Part shown: in pieces, positions 2,767 through 25,609 of the stretch
Position numbering within the stretch: position 1 is the stretch's first letter
Layout of the letters: every line of letters starts with the position of its first letter
Assembly: GCA_036574215.1 (NCBI GenBank)
Contig: JAINCR010000066.1
Coordinates: forward strand, 1 to 32,995
DNA: 32,995 bases
Source of the DNA: Caldisericaceae bacterium
GTDB lineage: Bacteria; Caldisericota; Caldisericia; Caldisericales; Caldisericaceae
Direction of reading: 5' to 3'
The notes under the pieces: generated by a model
Databases searched by the model: none
Seen by the model: only the letters and a program-made list of their open reading frames with translations
Told to the model about the DNA's origin: nothing
Made by a program: the position numbers and the translations under genes

Positions 2767-3495
2767 TTAGTCAAAAGTAAAAACAACATTAACTGTCACG
2801 TTAACCTTCAATGTGCCCCCTTCAACAGGAACCGATGCTTCATTTTCTACTCCTGCAAATGATTTAAATAAAGGTATAGGATAACTAACTGATTCAATTG
2901 AGATAGTTTTAATACCAGTAACTTTGTAATTTGTGCCATTAAGTGCTGCATCTGCCTTTGCTCTTGCATTTTTCATAGCGTTTTCAATTGCTTGAAGTTT
3001 TAATTCATCCCTATTTGATGCATCAAAGACAATACCTCCAATGTTATTAACACCAGATTTTACAACAGCAGAAAGAACTTTTGAAGCTTTTTCAATTTCT
3101 GTTATTACAACAAAATCTTCAGAAGCATGGAACCCTTTGAGTTTTGATTCCCCTGTTTGTGGATTGTAATCATAAACTGGATACAGGCTAAGGTTAGATG
3201 TCTTTATCTTTTCTTTAGGTATTTTTAAATCAAGAAGCGCCTTAATAATAGCGTTTGCCTTTTTACTAAGTAAGTCCATTGCTTGTTCAGGATCAGAGTC
3301 TTCGGTAAAAATACCAAAATTTAAATTAACTATGTCAGGTATCACCTCAACTACACCTTCTCCTGTAACTGAAATAGTATGGTTAGTTGGATCGTCAGTT
3401 GCCTTAACTTCTCCTTTAGGAAGAGTTTTTCCACCAATAAAAATTACACTTAAAATTGCAATGATTACAAATAAAGCTAATAATTTTTTGTTCAT
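2767..3495 (-). CDS. Secreted or membrane-anchored SIMPL-domain (DUF541) protein
   Basis: A 242-residue protein with an N-terminal hydrophobic segment (residues 4-21) that acts as a signal peptide or anchor. A SIMPL/DUF541 domain follows, recognisable by the start 'ISVTGEGVVEVIPDIV', the middle 'LSLYPVYDYNP' segment and the C-terminal beta strands ending 'VNVTVNVVFTFD'. SIMPL proteins are periplasmic or outer-envelope proteins of poorly defined function, some linked to stress protection. GGAGGTG lies about 9 nt before the ATG. Immediately upstream is an ECF-type promoter motif (3514-3543) shared with the secreted-protein island near 20.7 kb. The gene stands alone; downstream it converges with the NrdD-tail gene. 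Confidence 0.9.
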   Translation of the reverse strand: MNKKLLALFVIIAILSVIFIGGKTLPKGEVKATDDPTNHTISVTGEGVVEVIPDIVNLNFGIFTEDSDPEQAMDLLSKKANAIIKALLDLKIPKEKIKTSNLSLYPVYDYNPQTGESKLKGFHASEDFVVITEIEKASKVLSAVVKSGVNNIGGIVFDASNRDELKLQAIENAMKNARAKADAALNGTNYKVTGIKTISIESVSYPIPLFKSFAGVENEASVPVEGGTLKVNVTVNVVFTFD

Positions 3496-3513: not shown

Positions 3514-3543
3514 ATTAGATACAAGATACACCTAAAAAGTTCC
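3514..3543 (-). promoter_or_regulatory. ECF-sigma-like promoter motif before the SIMPL gene
   Basis: Read on the minus strand: GGAACTTTTT, 11 nt, then GTATCTAAT. The same two blocks with the same 11-nt spacing occur at 20657-20686 (identical blocks) and 25296-25325 (one mismatch). The blocks match the general shape of ECF sigma promoters, with an AAC-containing -35 followed by T-runs and a CGTA/TCTAA-type -10. The -10 ends about 20 nt before the ATG, so the transcript leader would be very short, barely including the ribosome-binding site. Confidence 0.6.
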
Positions 3544-18538: not shown

Positions 18539-18650
18539 AGAAAAAACTAAAAATTCTTCCTAAAAGGTATTGACGTAAGAGAGAGTATATAATGTAGTAG
18601 AAAGGAGATGGTGTAATATGGAAGCAAAAAGGAAGGTAGATGGGTTGTGA
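18539..18650 (+). promoter_or_regulatory. Promoter/leader module, copy A (short GA spacer)
   Basis: The conserved block AAAAAACTAAAAA (from 18541) is followed by TTGACG (18570-18575), a GA-rich 12-nt spacer, TATAAT (18588-18593), AAAGGAG (18601-18607) and a 10-residue leader ORF at 18618-18650 (MEAKRKVDGL). The 12-nt spacing is too short for a normal vegetative promoter, unlike the 18 nt in copy B. From the leader ATG to the first gene is 103 nt of almost entirely purine-rich sequence. Confidence 0.6.
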
Positions 18651-18720: not shown

Positions 18721-19359
18721 ATGAAGAAAGTTTTAGGTTTAATTATCGTCGTTAATCTTCTTTTGAGCTTGACTTTTATAAGTAAAGTAGTTGCTAACCA
18801 GTGGAGTCCGAGAGAAGATTGGGGTCCACAAAGTAAGCCATTTTCCCCTGATTGGGGAAGAACTGTAATGTATGAGTATAATGATAGCGCATATAATTTG
18901 TATGTTTCCCCTCAAGCGAGGTTTAGATTTACTTGGGATGCAATTAAAACAATAAAAGAGTACTATGAATATTTTTACCCACCATTGTACTATACTTTTG
19001 ACATTTCAGTAGTAGATAAGACTTGCACTGGCGAAGGGTGTAATACCACTGTCTCTGCTCTTAATACAACAATGTATTACTCTACACTTCCCTTTCCACA
19101 CTTTGATAGAGACGACGACCCTGAAGAAACAGGAGGCAATGGTTATTATGATGAAACAGAAGTTACTTGTTTGCAACCTTTAGCTATGCGCGCAGATACA
19201 GATTATCGCTTTGACTCACGATTTAAAGTATATTCTACTACTCCTATCACATTTGAATTTGCTTCACAGATGAGCTTTTATGATTACGGATCTGGTGAGT
19301 ATAATACAGCACCGAATTTTAATGAGACACACCTATCAAGAAATTATCCTTGGTATTAG
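18721..19359 (+). CDS. Secreted protein of unknown function
   Basis: I do not recognise a family. With the ATG at 18721 the protein has 212 residues and a clean signal peptide (MKK, hydrophobic 4-23, probable cleavage after VVA at about 27). An in-frame ATG at 18640 would add 27 charged residues ahead of the signal, so it was rejected. The mature part is rich in Tyr, Phe, Thr and Asp, with three cysteines (a TCTGEGCN pair and a later VTCL) that could form a disulfide. The acidic loop FDRDDDPEETGGNGYYDE could bind calcium. It is the first gene of a three-gene unit behind promoter module A. Confidence 0.75.
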   Translation: MKKVLGLIIVVNLLLSLTFISKVVANQWSPREDWGPQSKPFSPDWGRTVMYEYNDSAYNLYVSPQARFRFTWDAIKTIKEYYEYFYPPLYYTFDISVVDKTCTGEGCNTTVSALNTTMYYSTLPFPHFDRDDDPEETGGNGYYDETEVTCLQPLAMRADTDYRFDSRFKVYSTTPITFEFASQMSFYDYGSGEYNTAPNFNETHLSRNYPWY

Positions 19360-19369
19360 GAGGTAAAGT

Positions 19370-19996
19370 ATGAAGAAAATAATATTCATATTGATAATTT
19401 TAATGTCTCTTACATTAGGTGTCTTTGGATTTTTAAAGGCGTTTTCTCAAGATAAACCTTACTTTGATATGTTTTCTATTGCAAGAGAATTTTCTTTAAG
19501 TAAGGAACATCTTCTAAATTATAAAAACAAGATAGATAAAGTTCTTGATAGAATAAAAGATAAAGAATCTCCTTTTGAGAAATACTTTTTAACAATTACA
19601 TTCTCAAAGTATATTAATAAAGAGGAACTTGAAAGACTTGTAAAAGCATACAATATAGAAGTGCTTGCAATAGAAGGAAGGAGTATTGAAAAAGGCACAA
19701 ACCTTAAAGGGACTTTTCTTGTAGGTCCTGAAAATGGAATGCTTTACGATGAAAAACTCCTATTAGATATGCTTAAAAGAAACAATACAGAATTTAAAGG
19801 ATTTACTGCTATTATTGGTAACATCCAAAATAAAGATATACAAAGATTAAGAAACAATAAAATTGTATTCCTTATTGACCCATCAGCCGATACCCATTTT
19901 GTAAGAAACCCAAAACATGAAAAAACAAAATCTTGGGATGGATATATGCCAAGCGTTTTTCCTGAGCTTGAGAAAAACAACTTATTAAACTATTAA
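19370..19996 (+). CDS. Secreted or membrane-anchored protein of unknown function
   Basis: A 208-residue protein with an N-terminal hydrophobic segment (residues 4-22), no lipobox, and an exported soluble domain without cysteines. Its C-terminal third ('VFLIDPSADTHFVRNPKHEKTKSWDGYMPSVFPELEK') has the feel of a conserved domain, but I cannot name it. AGGAGG with good spacing precedes the ATG. It lies 10 nt after the first gene of the unit and 3 nt before the next, so they are clearly one operon. Confidence 0.75.
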   Translation: MKKIIFILIILMSLTLGVFGFLKAFSQDKPYFDMFSIAREFSLSKEHLLNYKNKIDKVLDRIKDKESPFEKYFLTITFSKYINKEELERLVKAYNIEVLAIEGRSIEKGTNLKGTFLVGPENGMLYDEKLLLDMLKRNNTEFKGFTAIIGNIQNKDIQRLRNNKIVFLIDPSADTHFVRNPKHEKTKSWDGYMPSVFPELEKNNLLNY

Positions 19997-19999
19997 GGT

Positions 20000-20584
20000 A
20001 TGAAGAAGAAAGTGATAATTATAATAATTACTGCAGTTATCCTACTTCTCATTATAGTATCTACTGATTACTACAGTAGAGGTAGAGGGACTAAAACAGT
20101 AAAAATGTTAGAAAGAGCACAACTTGGTTGGTCTGGTATTTACTTAACTTTGTTAGATTACAAATTTGTTCATCCATCTATTGAAGAAAAGTTCCAAAAA
20201 TACATTGCATTTCAAGTGTTATTAGACGGAAGCAAAAATAGAACCAAAAATGATTATGTCCATTTTGGTGAACATTATAATTGTAAATCTTATAAATGTT
20301 ATGAGTTATACGGCTGTTTTATTGTTGCAGGAAAACTCCATTCTAAACAAACATCATATGGTTCTATCCATCCAGAGGATGCAGTTAAACTTTTTGGAAA
20401 TAAGTTTCCTATAATTGGTTTAGGAAAATTAGAAAATAATATAGCCTTTGGCTGGGTTGTTTTTAAAGTTCCTGAAGATTTTGAGATTAACGAATTTATT
20501 TATACACATTTTGAGAGAGACGATTTAGATAAAATTTTCCCCAATGCAACAGTTAAGGTAATCTTTAAAGAACCTATAAAATAA
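20000..20584 (+). CDS. Membrane-anchored protein of unknown function with a cysteine cluster
   Basis: A 194-residue protein: MKKK, one strong N-terminal membrane segment (residues 4-21), then an exported domain with three close cysteines in YNCKSYKCYELYGC. These could form a disulfide or bind a metal. No family recognised. The ribosome-binding site is weak (TAAGGT directly before the ATG), suggesting coupling to the upstream gene. It is the last gene of the unit and is followed by a terminator. Confidence 0.72.
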   Translation: MKKKVIIIIITAVILLLIIVSTDYYSRGRGTKTVKMLERAQLGWSGIYLTLLDYKFVHPSIEEKFQKYIAFQVLLDGSKNRTKNDYVHFGEHYNCKSYKCYELYGCFIVAGKLHSKQTSYGSIHPEDAVKLFGNKFPIIGLGKLENNIAFGWVVFKVPEDFEINEFIYTHFERDDLDKIFPNATVKVIFKEPIK

Positions 20585-20656: not shown

Positions 20657-20686
20657 GGAACTTTTTTATGATCTTACGTATCTAAT
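20657..20686 (+). promoter_or_regulatory. ECF-sigma-like promoter motif before the second island unit
   Basis: GGAACTTTTT, 11 nt, GTATCTAAT, with both blocks identical to those before the SIMPL gene at 3514-3543. The downstream sequence ATATATGAGGAAAAGGAATTTT is shared in related form with 25321 onward and 23441 onward. The motif lies about 70 nt upstream of a vegetative-type promoter (20756-20785), so unit B may have two promoters. Confidence 0.6.
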
Positions 20687-20727: not shown

Positions 20728-20808
20728 AAAAAACTAAAAATTTTCCTAAAAGGTATTGACAAGAGAGAGAGAGAGAGAGTATAATGTAGTAGAAAGGAGA
20801 TGATGTAG
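20728..20808 (+). promoter_or_regulatory. Promoter/leader module, copy B (long GA spacer)
   Basis: AAAAAACTAAAAA at 20728 is followed by TTGACA (20756-20761), an 18-nt pure AG repeat and TATAAT (20780-20785). This is a good vegetative promoter whose whole spacer is a dinucleotide microsatellite. AAAGGAG (20793-20799) and a leader ORF follow. Copy A has 12 nt and copy D has 8 nt in the same place. Confidence 0.75.
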
Positions 20809-20809
20809 T

Positions 20810-20875
20810 ATGAGGGTAAAAAAGAAAGTAGATGGGAGGTGGGAGAGAGGAAAAACTCTTATGAAAAGAAAGTAA
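20810..20875 (+). CDS. Leader ORF, 21 residues
   Basis: ATG preceded by AAAGGAG at 10-nt spacing; encodes a very basic peptide beginning MRVKKKVDG. The counterpart at 18618-18650 has 10 residues and that at 23673-23690 has 5 (MRVKK), so length is not conserved while the ribosome-binding site and first codons are. It might be a regulatory leader, a 30S-docking site that stabilises the mRNA, or the decayed start of a duplicated gene: the real gene at 20928 also begins MRVKK, with different codons. Translation is unproven. Confidence 0.35.
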   Translation: MRVKKKVDGRWERGKTLMKRK

Positions 20876-20927: not shown

Positions 20928-21818
20928 ATGAGAGTTAAAAAAATGATTATTTTGTTAGTTGTTTTTATCTTTTTGGTGGGTTTTATTCCGTTTGAGAAAA
21001 TGGTTAAGGCAGATGAAGGATACGGAGTAATTAATACAGAAAAAGGCAAAATGTATAGAGATACACACGGGAATCTATTTCCTATTATTGTTATTAACGG
21101 TAAAAAGGAAGTAAAGATCAATGAATATGAACTTGCTCCTCTTGAGGCACTTTTGGAAAGAGACGGAAAACAATCAAAAGGTAAAAGTGCATTGCCTGAA
21201 GAAATTCTTAAGAAATACTATGTTTCAAAGAATCTTTTTATAAATTCAGATTTCTCTACAACACTTCCATCAATTGTTTCATATAACCAAAGATACAAGT
21301 TATGGTGTAAGGAAAAATTAGGATTTGGCCCATCTACAATTGGAGGAGCTGGTTGTTTTCTTACTTCTTGTGCAATGATGCTTGCAACATATAACCTTAC
21401 GATAAATGGTAGTATTGTAACCCCTTTAAATTTAAACACATGGTTGAAGAATAATGGAGGTTTTAGCGGTGACAATTTAATTTTTGGTGCCATCGCAAAA
21501 TTTCCTGGGATAAGTAGTATTGGTTATTTTGATAGCTTTAATGACGCAGCAATTGCCATTTTCTATCGGATAGTTCCAATTTTACGTATGACACCTTCAC
21601 ATTTTGCTCCATTGGTAAAAACTAATGGAGAAAGAAATAGAAAGACTAATTGGATCATGAATACATACAGTAGAGATTACAACTATGATTATAATAATCC
21701 CGGTTATCGGATTTATGCACCATATGATGGAAAGACTCCTTACTACCAAACAGTAGAAGAAAGTGGATATGATTTTGCAAGTTCATCCGTATTTAGAACT
21801 GCTTACCCACAACAATAA
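20928..21818 (+). CDS. Secreted C39-like (papain-fold) cysteine peptidase
   Basis: A 296-residue protein with a signal peptide (MRVKK, hydrophobic 6-20, cleavage near VKADE). From residue 118 it follows the peptidase-C39-like pattern: 'YNQRYKLW' with oxyanion Gln121, 'TIGGAGCFLTSCAMML' with nucleophile Cys143, and 'SHFAPLVKTNG' with His225. The third residue, usually Asp in a 'DP' motif, is less clear here ('IMNTYSRDY', Asn245 or Asp250). AAGGAGG has ideal spacing to the ATG. It is the first gene of unit B, behind both the ECF-like and the GA-spacer promoters. The substrate could be a wall peptide or a leader peptide; neither is shown. Confidence 0.8.
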   Translation: MRVKKMIILLVVFIFLVGFIPFEKMVKADEGYGVINTEKGKMYRDTHGNLFPIIVINGKKEVKINEYELAPLEALLERDGKQSKGKSALPEEILKKYYVSKNLFINSDFSTTLPSIVSYNQRYKLWCKEKLGFGPSTIGGAGCFLTSCAMMLATYNLTINGSIVTPLNLNTWLKNNGGFSGDNLIFGAIAKFPGISSIGYFDSFNDAAIAIFYRIVPILRMTPSHFAPLVKTNGERNRKTNWIMNTYSRDYNYDYNNPGYRIYAPYDGKTPYYQTVEESGYDFASSSVFRTAYPQQ

Positions 21819-21837: not shown

Positions 21838-23244
21838 ATGAGAAGAGTTGTAGTAATATTATTAATATTGTTTTTTATATTATTATCTCAAGGTTGTGAT
21901 AAATCAACACATACTTCTGTCCCTGTTTTTTATGGTCAATACTGTAATGCTCAACGCACATCCTACCGAGATGTTGAAGGATTAAAAGAACTTCCTAACA
22001 AAGTATCATGGCAATATACACTTACCGAAGCAGATGAAATTTTTTTTATCACAATGGATGCTCCTACTGTTGAAGAGAACAGAGTGTTTATGGTAAGTGG
22101 TAGTATAATGAGTTGCGTTGATTTAGATACAGGGAAAGAAATTTGGAGAAAGAGTTATCCGGATCCTTTCCCTCCTTTTTCTGAGTTTAATTATTCGCCA
22201 GTTGTTTATGAAGACAAATTGATTGTTGTTGAAGGTTTTCCTGCTGCTCAATACCTTGCCGCATTTGATAAAAATACAGGAGAGTTACTCTGGAAAAGCG
22301 AACTCATTGGTAATATGGAAGTAAACGACACATCACGTCACCCGTTGATCATTAATGGAAAGATTTACCTTGCAGCATCAAGTGCAGAGAGTTATAAGAA
22401 AAATAAAGATGCACAGGCTGGTATATGGGTTTGGGATATAGAAACAGGGGAAGTTTTGGATAAGATATTTATAGAGCCTGTAGCAGAACCAGTCGTTGGG
22501 AAGTATCGCTCAATGTTTCCCGTATCAGTGGCTCTTGCAGCAGACGGTTCAGACATCTACGGAGTTACACAGTTCACTAATGATAGCACATACCGGACTT
22601 ATATATTCTCTTATGATACTCTAAGAAAAAAATTTACATGGTTTGAACCAGTTGGCGAAGAAGGCTTTAGATCTCCTGGTTATAGAGCACAAATTGCAGT
22701 AGATAACAACTTTGTTGCTGTAGGTATGGTTGGAGACCAGTGGGGTGAACCTGAGCCTCAATTCTTCATTAAAGTTTTTGATAAGACTTCGCATAAGCCG
22801 TTGTGGCAAAACATTTCAGAGACTAGTAGAGAATTAAACCCTGTATTTACTATTTCACATTTAGCTATTCATAATGGGAAGCTCTATGCGATGACTATGG
22901 ATAAAAGATTAGCTTGTTTCAATATTGAGACAGGAGAAATAGTATGGAGTTTTAAAGATAAGGATTGGCAGAGCAACTGGTGGAACACTTGGAATAAAGA
23001 TGAAAATCGTTTTAGAGAACACGATATAGTTATTTCAAAGGATGTTGTTTATTTTAATGTAGATAAGGCAATTTATGCATTCGATACAGAAGCAGGAAAA
23101 TTATTATGGCGCAAGGTAGTTAAGAAAGGACATAGTTTTATTAACATGATGCCTGTGGATAATGGTTTAATAGTGCGTTATCAAGATAACCGTGCTGGGT
23201 ATGACATGCCTCAGGAGCCTTCTGTCGCTGAACTATGGAAGTAA
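21838..23244 (+). CDS. Lipoprotein with PQQ-type beta-propeller repeats
   Basis: A 468-residue lipoprotein. The lipobox LSQGC puts the lipidated Cys at residue 20 when the ATG at 21838 is used; a longer in-frame start at 21763 would bury the signal peptide. The body contains repeated 'Y.FD..TG...W' blades of the PQQ/pyrrolo-quinoline-like propeller: 'LAAFDKNTGELLWKS', 'LACFNIETGEIVWSF', 'IYAFDTEAGKLLWRK'. Propellers of this kind (BamB-like) serve as scaffolds, or as dehydrogenases if PQQ is bound; no dehydrogenase motifs are visible. The start codon lies in an 11-bp tandem duplication (21827-21848). Confidence 0.88.
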   Translation: MRRVVVILLILFFILLSQGCDKSTHTSVPVFYGQYCNAQRTSYRDVEGLKELPNKVSWQYTLTEADEIFFITMDAPTVEENRVFMVSGSIMSCVDLDTGKEIWRKSYPDPFPPFSEFNYSPVVYEDKLIVVEGFPAAQYLAAFDKNTGELLWKSELIGNMEVNDTSRHPLIINGKIYLAASSAESYKKNKDAQAGIWVWDIETGEVLDKIFIEPVAEPVVGKYRSMFPVSVALAADGSDIYGVTQFTNDSTYRTYIFSYDTLRKKFTWFEPVGEEGFRSPGYRAQIAVDNNFVAVGMVGDQWGEPEPQFFIKVFDKTSHKPLWQNISETSRELNPVFTISHLAIHNGKLYAMTMDKRLACFNIETGEIVWSFKDKDWQSNWWNTWNKDENRFREHDIVISKDVVYFNVDKAIYAFDTEAGKLLWRKVVKKGHSFINMMPVDNGLIVRYQDNRAGYDMPQEPSVAELWK

Positions 23245-23413: not shown

Positions 23414-23580
23414 TTTGGAACTTTTTGAGTTTGAGAGTCCAATATATGAGAAGAAAAAATTTTTAAAAATTCTCTGAAAAATTGGGAACAAATTTCCAAA
23501 TTCTTAGGTCTTATTGTATGAGAAGAAAAAAATTTAAAAATTTTTTCAAAATCGTGGGAAAATTTTTTAGGATTTGGAAC
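23414..23580 (+). repeat. Tandem degenerate copies of the ECF-motif region, about 72-nt period
   Basis: GGAACTTTTT...GAGTCCAATATATGAGAAG (from 23417), GGGAACA...TCTTATTGTATGAGAAG (from 23484) and TTTGGAACATAATCTAAT (about 23573) are successive, decayed versions of the GGAAC / TATCTAAT / TATGAG-AAAA series. 'TATGAGAAGAAAAAA' recurs at 23445 and 23517, a 72-nt period. In the first copy the spacing between blocks is 3 nt shorter than in the intact motifs. The rest of the 23245-23765 gap holds a small GAGGAT / ATCCTC hairpin at 23596-23614. Confidence 0.55.
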
Positions 23581-23765: not shown

Positions 23766-24671
23766 ATGAAAAAAAGATTGATTTTATCCGTTTTAGTTCT
23801 GGTTTTGTTGTTTAGTACATTTAGTATAAAAGTTTTTTCAGCAGATGATTACACCATCGGCAAGCGGGAGATTACAAGATACATTGATTCCAAAGGACTT
23901 AATCTAAAAGAGGGTACTCCTGAATATTTTGATTTTTTGAATAACTTACTGTGGGGTGAGTATAACAAAGATTTACAAAATTCACCATACTTCAGGAAAA
24001 TTGTTAAATATGCTGCATATTACTATGCACACCCAGAAATCCTATATCCTGCACAATGCAAAGATCGTTTAGATGATATCATCACCAATAATAACACCAA
24101 GAGTACTACATGGGTATACAATCCATCCTTAGCTGTGAACTATGCCTATCAGTATTCGATTGAGGGTGGCAAAGGCCAAAATCCAGATTTTCCTGATTTT
24201 AGGAACAAAGGTGGTGACTGCACTAATTTTGCAAGTCGGGTGGTGAATGCAGGAAAAGTTCCAATTGATGGGAGTGGTACTTGTTCAAGCTATTCAACTA
24301 TTACAAAATGGTATGTAAACAGAGCACAATGGTGGTGCTTACAATCAAGATGGGCATGGTCTACTTCTTGGTCTATTGTAGGAGATTTCTATACATATCA
24401 AAGCCAGTACAAAAATAACGCCACCTCTTCAGTATTTGGAATAAGTCAAATTAATTCTCTGAGAGCTTCTGCTGTTCCAGGTGATGTTATCCAACTCGAA
24501 ACTGGTGGGAGTAAATGGCATTCACTAATAGTAACCAAAAAACAAAATGGAGAAACATATTTGACTTATCACTCTGGCCCTAATGGTTATGATTGTGTTG
24601 ACCATTCCTTACAGTCAATAATTAATGGTCATAGCATTATTGACCACTTTTACCTTTTGCATTTCCACTAA
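23766..24671 (+). CDS. Secreted amidase-domain protein (Amidase_6 type cysteine hydrolase)
   Basis: A 301-residue protein with a signal peptide (MKKR, hydrophobic 5-24, cleavage after VFSA). From residue 120 it shows the Amidase_6 pattern: 'NPSLAVNYAYQYSIEGG', then 'FRNKGGDCTNFASRVVNAG' with candidate nucleophile Cys152, a 'W.Y....W' aromatic stretch, and 'SKWHSLIVTKK' with candidate His252. These domains occur in secreted firmicute-type proteins and are thought to cleave amide bonds of wall or peptide substrates. GAGG precedes the ATG. It is the first gene of unit C. Extra cysteines (98, 173, 191, 277) could form disulfides. Confidence 0.85.
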   Translation: MKKRLILSVLVLVLLFSTFSIKVFSADDYTIGKREITRYIDSKGLNLKEGTPEYFDFLNNLLWGEYNKDLQNSPYFRKIVKYAAYYYAHPEILYPAQCKDRLDDIITNNNTKSTTWVYNPSLAVNYAYQYSIEGGKGQNPDFPDFRNKGGDCTNFASRVVNAGKVPIDGSGTCSSYSTITKWYVNRAQWWCLQSRWAWSTSWSIVGDFYTYQSQYKNNATSSVFGISQINSLRASAVPGDVIQLETGGSKWHSLIVTKKQNGETYLTYHSGPNGYDCVDHSLQSIINGHSIIDHFYLLHFH

Positions 24672-24688: not shown

Positions 24689-25240
24689 ATGCTTAAAAGG
24701 GCCTTTATTTTTGTTATTATTATCTTCTTAATCTTGCTTGGATTATTGTATCTTTTTCCTTGCGAAGCTAAGGTTGAAAGTGTAAAAGTCCATGATTTAA
24801 CTAACGATACTGAGAGACTTAATTTTTGGCTGAAGAAAGGTAAGTGGAATTTTAATCCACAAAAGAAATATCTTATTCTTTTCTATACAGTATCTGTTCG
24901 TCCCCTCTTACCTTTTTCATTTCAATTTGGAAAAGAAACTTTTAAACAATTAAGAGATGATTTTAGTGTAATTATTTTAGAACCTGCCATACCTCGCCAG
25001 GAACAATGGGGACCTTTCAAAAAAAGATATATATACTTTGGTATTGTGGTAGAAAGTCCTAAAGATATGAGTTCAAGAACGATTATAAATAATATCGAGC
25101 TTAAACTCCACGCTCAAAGAGAGGTTAAAAATCCAGAATGGGAAAAACATCCAGCTCATACAACTTATTCTTTTTCTCAGCCCAGCTGGCCTACTATAAA
25201 GGTTAACGTCCCTAAAAATCTAACAATTGAGGTAAACTAA
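24689..25240 (+). CDS. Membrane-anchored or secreted protein of unknown function
   Basis: A 183-residue protein with a strong N-terminal hydrophobic segment (residues 5-24) and a 'FPCEAK' sequence that is not a good lipobox. The exported domain looks beta-rich and contains 'LIILFYTVSVRPLLPFSFQFG'-like strands; no family recognised. GAGGAGG precedes the ATG. It follows the amidase gene by 17 nt and is the last gene of the island. No terminator hairpin is apparent after it. Confidence 0.73.
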   Translation: MLKRAFIFVIIIFLILLGLLYLFPCEAKVESVKVHDLTNDTERLNFWLKKGKWNFNPQKKYLILFYTVSVRPLLPFSFQFGKETFKQLRDDFSVIILEPAIPRQEQWGPFKKRYIYFGIVVESPKDMSSRTIINNIELKLHAQREVKNPEWEKHPAHTTYSFSQPSWPTIKVNVPKNLTIEVN

Positions 25241-25295: not shown

Positions 25296-25325
25296 AGAAC
25301 TTTTTTATAAGTTTACGTATCTAAT
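25296..25325 (+). promoter_or_regulatory. ECF-sigma-like motif, orphan copy
   Basis: AGAACTTTTT, 11 nt, GTATCTAAT: one mismatch to the motifs at 3514-3543 and 20657-20686. The region 25296-25420 aligns along most of its length with 20657-20785, which makes it a duplicated promoter region. No intact gene follows it. Confidence 0.5.
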
Positions 25326-25370: not shown

Positions 25371-25418
25371 AAAAAACTAAAAAATCTTCTTAAAAGTATT
25401 GACGGAAGAGAGTAAAAT
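25371..25418 (+). promoter_or_regulatory. Promoter module, copy D (shortest GA spacer), orphan
   Basis: AAAAAACTAAAAA at 25371, TTGACG (25399-25404), an 8-nt GA-rich spacer, TAAAAT (25413-25418). The spacing is too short for activity as a standard promoter. The leader ORF part is missing. Confidence 0.5.
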
Positions 25419-25420
25419 AA

Positions 25421-25609
25421 GTTGTCTCTCTTTTCTTCTTTTATCTCATTATAACAGGTGGAACAATATTACTTTTTCCTCTGTTTCTATTTGAAGGCTT
25501 AATTAGTATGTTTATATTGGCTTTCCCCTACTTTGAAATGCCTCTTATTTTTTCAGGCATACTTGCATATGTCTACATAAAGAAGATTTCTAAGAAGTCT
25601 TCTCATTGA
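25421..25609 (+). pseudogene. Remnant of a membrane-protein gene
   Basis: An open frame of 62 codons with no standard start before the ATG at 25508. It encodes two hydrophobic segments and a basic end (KKISKKSSH). It follows the orphan promoter copy and looks like the 3' end of a gene whose start was lost, possibly by the duplication that left module D. If the ATG at 25508 were used, it would be a 33-residue membrane peptide. The perfect ribosome-binding sequence GAGGAGGTGAT directly after the stop (25608-25618) has no proper start codon after it. Confidence 0.3.

Follow-up and report, generated by a model that had tools for sequence, protein, structure and literature searches.

A GA-repeat promoter cassette dispersed through the Caldisericaceae and its proposed switching by spacer slippage

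A promoter-like sequence whose −35 and −10 boxes are separated by nothing but a dinucleotide repeat raises the question of whether changes in repeat number could switch the genes behind it. Such a sequence lies in the window, by which we mean the whole 32,995-nt stretch analysed here, contig C66 of a 1.31-Mb genome (109 contigs, 98% complete).

The GA-spacer promoter and its upstream ECF-type motif

At 20756..20785 (+), a putative σA-type promoter consists of a TTGACA −35 box (20756-20761), an (AG)9 spacer (20762-20779) and a TATAAT −10 box (20780-20785). The spacer is 18 nt of pure AG, described by TRF as period 2, 9 copies and 100%. Two homologous copies were found on the same strand: TTGACG-TAAGAGAGAGTA-TATAAT at 18570..18593, with a spacer of 12 nt, or of 10 nt when its TATATAAT box (TATATA) is counted from the first base, and TTGACG-GAAGAGAG-TAAAAT at 25399..25418, with a spacer of 8 nt. 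All three sites sit in homologous upstream regions (repeat families D1-D3 and D5), and the original prediction of three homologous, GA-rich promoters with spacers of 18, 12 and 8 nt was borne out by the sequence and by these shared families. It had also held that the 18-nt copy alone has near-normal spacing; this is correct within the window but not for the genome, which carries a 16-nt copy at G000:C51:1526-. The 25399 promoter is apparently joined by a deletion to the remnant of a membrane-protein gene (25421..25609, +; the last ~59 codons), whose 59 residues share 81% identity with the end of a 287-aa protein encoded in the G001:C12 unit. On this comparison, the 25399 copy stands before what is left of a deleted unit and has no intact secreted unit behind it.

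The hexamer pair alone is unremarkable, as TTGACA-N(8-38)-TATAAT occurs once in the AT-rich window and at least once in 37 of 100 shuffles. A GA tract of at least 12 nt (AGAGAGAGAGAG) gave four overlapping matches in the window, all within the 20756 tract, and none in 100 shuffles. The locus thus has, by sequence, the arrangement that characterizes promoter-spacer phase variation, a simple repeat between −35 and −10, and we infer that the TTGACA and TATAAT boxes are used as a promoter.

A predicted ECF-sigma-type promoter, GGAACTT-N17-TCTAA, lies at 20657..20685 (+; motif at L001:1518), some 70 nt 5′ of the GA promoter. A counterpart, AGAACTT-N17-TCTAA, at 25296..25324 (+), stands upstream of the 25399 copy and belongs to family D5 (86% to the 20649 copy). 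The unit that starts at 23766 with an Amidase_6 gene has ECF-like promoters upstream, including a variant GGAACTT...TCCAA at 23417..23442 (+; families D4 and D12), and is without a GA promoter. Classical ECF sigma (sigma-E-like) promoters have a motif and spacing of the form GGAACTT-N16/17-TCTAA. The same motif recurs 5′ of the cassettes and is also found in the window genome (L010) in front of an anti-sigma-like gene that immediately follows an ECF sigma gene, as in the regulons of such sigma factors. Sigma domains were detected in the product of the L010 sigma gene; the anti-sigma-like label rests on gene position, because that protein has no Pfam match. Unlike in the classical targets, the predicted motif stands here in tandem with a repeat-bearing promoter, and such a tandem would combine regulated and random control. 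GGAACTT-N17-TCTAA also occurs at 3515-3543 (−), before a SIMPL/DUF541 gene (2767-3495), which suggests that the ECF regulon extends past the secreted units.

Copies of the cassette and their spacer lengths

DNA searches with the 20756 region revealed a cassette dispersed over the window genome and those of other family members. It is modular, with the ECF-type promoter followed by the GA promoter and then by a Shine-Dalgarno/short-ORF module. A TTGAC + GA + TATAA pattern matched in 19 of 54 genomes of the phylum; on our reading of the matched letters, true cassettes appear to be confined to the window's own family. We tabulated 28 copies, picked by hand as TTGAC, a GA stretch and a −10-like box, from the window genome (G000), from G004, a member of the same genus whose genome is a single contig of 1,558,103 bases, and from G005, G008, G010, G011 and G024. 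Matches that seemed coding or unrelated were excluded, as were two ambiguous relatives, G000:C47:469 (8 nt to TAAGAT or 13 to TATAAT) and G001:C12 (a mixed CA/GA tract of 18 or 19 nt).

All 28 spacers were even and ranged from 8 to 38 nt, with 8 nt the commonest (11/28), followed by 10 (6 copies), 16 (3), 14, 18 and 28 (2 each), and 26 and 38 (1 each); these spacings hinge on the hexamer list, because the −10 box was chosen from a fixed one. The choice at G004:55387 (GACAAA, spacer 10) is weak. For copies with the TATATAAT box the first TATA was counted; taking the last TATAAT would shift 10 to 12 or 14 and 18 to 20, which are still even. The independent copies number fewer than 28, because the two 14-nt entries represent one duplication and the two long G004 copies share an origin. 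In the window genome, the clean copies have spacers of 8, 8, 8, 10/12, 16 and 18 nt, the last two of which fall within the range that we propose below to be active.

In G004, a 57-bp exact direct repeat that contains the promoter (L123, 8671-8727 and 10668-10724) flanks an IS-like gene and resembles a very long target duplication. Cassettes in L003, L006, L007 and L031 are adjoined by further dispersed repeats (GTCATTCTGA..GAAGAATCTC and TGCATGCGGTGTTTT), several of them at contig ends. Sixteen stretches with TATTGACAAGAGAGAG were found on viral contigs; none had cassette flanks by eye, and we took them as chance.

The spacing preferred by promoters of the family was read from exact TTGACA-N-TATAAT pairs. 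Among the matches listed for four family genomes (148 rows from G005, G012, G011 and G004, one listed G003 row being left uncounted), the spacer was 16 nt in 69 and 17 nt in 26, and any other length occurred in at most 5 rows. With the pairs peaking at 16-17 nt (95 of the 148 listed rows), (AG)8 matches the preferred spacing and (AG)9 exceeds the peak by one base. By our reading, the probable rRNA promoter of a congener is TTGACA-AGAGAGCAAAAAGTAG-TATAAT (L068). The cassette spacers therefore straddle the preferred distance, as those of phase-variable promoters do, and the 8- and 28-nt forms should be inactive.

Slippage in the spacer and its consequences

Whole-unit differences between near-identical sequences, a further mark of phase variation, were found in two genera. 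Two duplicated 5,050-bp segments of G004 share 99.7% identity (5 mismatches, 2 gap openings); the large gap comprises five GA units, or 10 nt, of the spacer, the AG tract being 36 nt in one copy and 26 nt in the other. In another genus, G008:C6:31650 (spacer 8) and G024:C27 (spacer 26), from two species, have flanks that are identical at 65/66 and 58/59 positions, and further pairs involving G008 likewise combine similar flanks with different spacers. GA tracts are also nearly restricted to this position: (GA)6 or longer occurs at nine places, spread over six of the 18 family genomes; eight are cassette spacers, and the ninth, in G006:C42, lies elsewhere and is not preceded by TTGACA. No (AC)6 tract was found in the 18 genomes. 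Loss of mismatch repair would raise slippage. Curated models of MutS1 and MutL reached their cut-offs in none of the 18 family genomes, compared with 11 of 14 control genomes. Matches to MutS1 below the cut-off, in 15 of the 18, came from open frames 785-798 aa long, a length expected of MutS2, and those to MutL, in 13 of the 18, covered just ~40-55 profile positions. Taken together, the whole-unit differences, the near restriction of GA tracts to the spacer and the lack of MutS1 and MutL above cut-off uphold the earlier suggestion of slippage, and the view that DNA slippage changes the length of the GA spacer is well supported.

We propose, with a probability of roughly 0.7, that the cassettes are phase-variable promoters switched by slippage in the GA spacer. 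The repeat would serve as the spacer of a σA promoter, and slippage would lengthen or shorten it by whole GA units. With a spacer of 16-18 nt, that is (AG)8 or (AG)9, the boxes would stand near the distance expected by RNA polymerase and the promoter would be on; with shorter (8-14) or longer (20-38) spacers it would be weak or off. The upstream ECF-type promoter could give regulated transcription regardless of GA length. Since the cassette recurs, mostly before genes for secreted or lipoprotein-like products, individual cells in a population may differ in the subset of these that they express. From sequence, we infer that expression depends on spacer length and that switches occur often and can be reversed.

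Against this model, most copies have spacings at which the promoter is expected to be off, and the commonest length is 8 nt, with both boxes retained. The one clear slippage event would also have switched nothing, because the G004 duplicates (28 and 38 nt) both lie outside the active range. Many short copies hold just three or four GA units and may hardly slip. The 8-nt form could have a use of its own or be a frozen end state. The switching model by itself leaves its abundance unexplained, and we attribute it provisionally to tracts that have shrunk until slippage nearly stops. A helical-turn rule, suggested by the series 8, 18, 28 and 38, was considered but set aside, because spacers of 10, 14, 16 and 26 nt occur as well.

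The same observations bear on an alternative in which the GA tract slips neutrally, the cassette having spread as a repeated upstream region in which the ECF promoter works, the GA promoter is a relic and its length is irrelevant. The dominance of 8-nt spacers would fit, as would the ECF-type promoter upstream of many copies, the deleted unit behind the 25399 copy and the origin of one copy pair in the IS-flanking 57-bp duplication. However, TTGAC and the −10-like box are kept between genera while the tract between them varies, the sequence 5′ of TTGACA is A-rich as in strong promoters, and neutral slippage would not predict that eight of the nine long GA tracts of the 18 genomes lie in the cassette spacer. 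We therefore consider a neutral relic unlikely.

Less probable still is that the 8-nt form is the working one, with TTGACAAGAGAGAGTATAAAAT, in the leader of the ECF transcript, serving as a signal at the protein or RNA level and the long GA tracts being accidental. In keeping with this, 8 nt is the mode, is found in G000, G004, G008 and G011, and is also the minimum, no shorter spacer having been seen among the cassettes although the search pattern would have revealed one of 6 nt. Yet the boxes match the exact σA hexamers that other promoters of the family use at 16-17 nt, the leaders have no Rfam match, and a floor near four units is also expected if slippage stops in short tracts. Recombination between cassettes (gene conversion or IS transfer) in place of slippage is very improbable as the source of the length differences: the repetitive nature of the cassettes, some of which adjoin IS-like genes, would favour it, but the flanks of the G004 duplication are near-identical for kilobases on both sides, its large difference consists of GA units only, and every tabulated spacer differs from the others by even numbers.

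Genes behind the cassettes and related systems

If the cassettes are switched by slippage, the genes that they precede indicate what would vary. Behind the 18-nt promoter, a putative short leader ORF of 21 codons, read from the sequence (20810..20875, +), follows a strong Shine-Dalgarno sequence; such ORFs (MRVKK.., MNVGG..), likewise with strong Shine-Dalgarno sequences, lie behind the GA promoter in many copies. The first gene of the 18-nt unit (20928..21818, +) encodes a protein with a secretory-like N-terminus and a weak match, below the curated cut-off, to the C39-like peptidases (Peptidase_C39_2, E 0.0025). It has a relative in L059 (64%), and no GA promoter was seen in the 351 bases around the start of that relative. 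The second gene (21838..23244, +) encodes a lipoprotein-like PQQ beta-propeller protein (PQQ_2, E 2.2e-20).

The 12-nt unit comprises three genes on the + strand: one for a secreted protein with no Pfam or NCBIfam match (18721..19359), and two for products with an N-terminal hydrophobic segment, of which the first (19370..19996) has only weak matches below cut-off and the other (20000..20584) is without an assigned family. In the unit preceded by ECF-like motifs only, the gene for a secreted Amidase_6 protein (23766..24671, +; PF12671, E 3.5e-23) is followed by one for a product with an N-terminal hydrophobic segment and no assigned family (24689..25240, +).

By a crude hydrophobicity rule, the first gene was secretory-like in 17 of the 28 copies, that is, in 17 of the 22 for which a frame was found, and in 6 of 25 other window genes. 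Of the other five first frames, two are probably spurious, one is an IS-like gene and one encodes a small Cys-rich peptide; the fifth is the gene behind 18570, for which a downstream start at 18721 gives a hydrophobic N-terminus. No first gene was found in 6 of the 28 copies, two of which are at contig ends. Amidase_6, C39-like, PQQ propeller and SurA_N-like proteins are encoded behind cassettes, and several first genes have no family match. The GA promoter of G024:C56 (L133), with a 16-nt spacer, is followed by two small Cys-rich peptides, a radical SAM protein and a second frame similar to the latter; the radical SAM protein resembles RiPP maturases (Clo7bot model, E 4.6e-74, below its cut-off), and the locus is likely a RiPP (Clo7bot/ranthipeptide-like) cluster. 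Control of surface or secreted products, another feature of phase variation, is thus indicated by gene context alone. This context agrees with the original proposal of length-variable control of secreted-protein units, except that its 25399 example heads a deleted one. With the whole-unit changes in repeat length between near-identical copies, it points to random up- or down-regulation of genes for secreted proteins.

Promoter-spacer repeats underlie phase variation in Haemophilus hif (TA repeats) and in Neisseria porA and opc (homopolymers). As in those systems, a simple repeat between −35 and −10 changes their distance by whole units. Unlike there, one GA-spacer cassette precedes many units, an ECF-type promoter lies upstream, and tracts reach 36 nt. 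In PMC2791445, simple-sequence tracts between core promoter elements are described as frequently reported, so the mechanism is known in kind, and the TAAA repeat of Neisseria nadA is placed upstream of the core promoter, where it works through a repressor. As at nadA in that account, repeat number would, by our proposal, alter promoter output with other control on top; unlike at nadA, the GA repeat is the core spacer itself.

What appears new is the multi-copy cassette, its tandem with an ECF-type promoter, and the lineage, on which our literature searches found no such report: none joined Caldisericum and phase variation, and Caldiserica with microsatellite matched only what appears to be a gut microbiota study. 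Repeat-driven phase variation is best known from host-adapted bacteria. The window's family belongs to a deep-branching lineage and is one that we take to be free-living and probably thermophilic; if its GA-spacer promoters do switch, random switching of secreted proteins serves outside hosts too. A broader proposition is possible but tentative, namely that a family lacking MutS1 and MutL keeps parallel contingency loci, in the form of one mobile GA-spacer promoter cassette, that vary secreted proteins and modified peptides at random from cell to cell over ECF stress control, perhaps with lengths of 8, 18, 28 and 38 nt, in steps of one helical turn, grading the output. This would amount to repeat-driven bet-hedging outside host-adapted bacteria. 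Any sequencing data reveal the spacer length, so that heterogeneity within populations of uncultured members is directly countable.

An Rfam search of the window and eight loci gave no match in the leaders and only a TPP riboswitch (RF00059, 29202-29309, −; 75.7 bits), upstream of ABC transporter-like genes. Several leaders of G004 and G011 (L081, L047, L048, L123 and L138) share, behind the GA promoter, a conserved and apparently structured stretch, GGAGC..CTCCCTC..GAGGGCAAGGCTCC, which has no Rfam match and is a candidate leader RNA.
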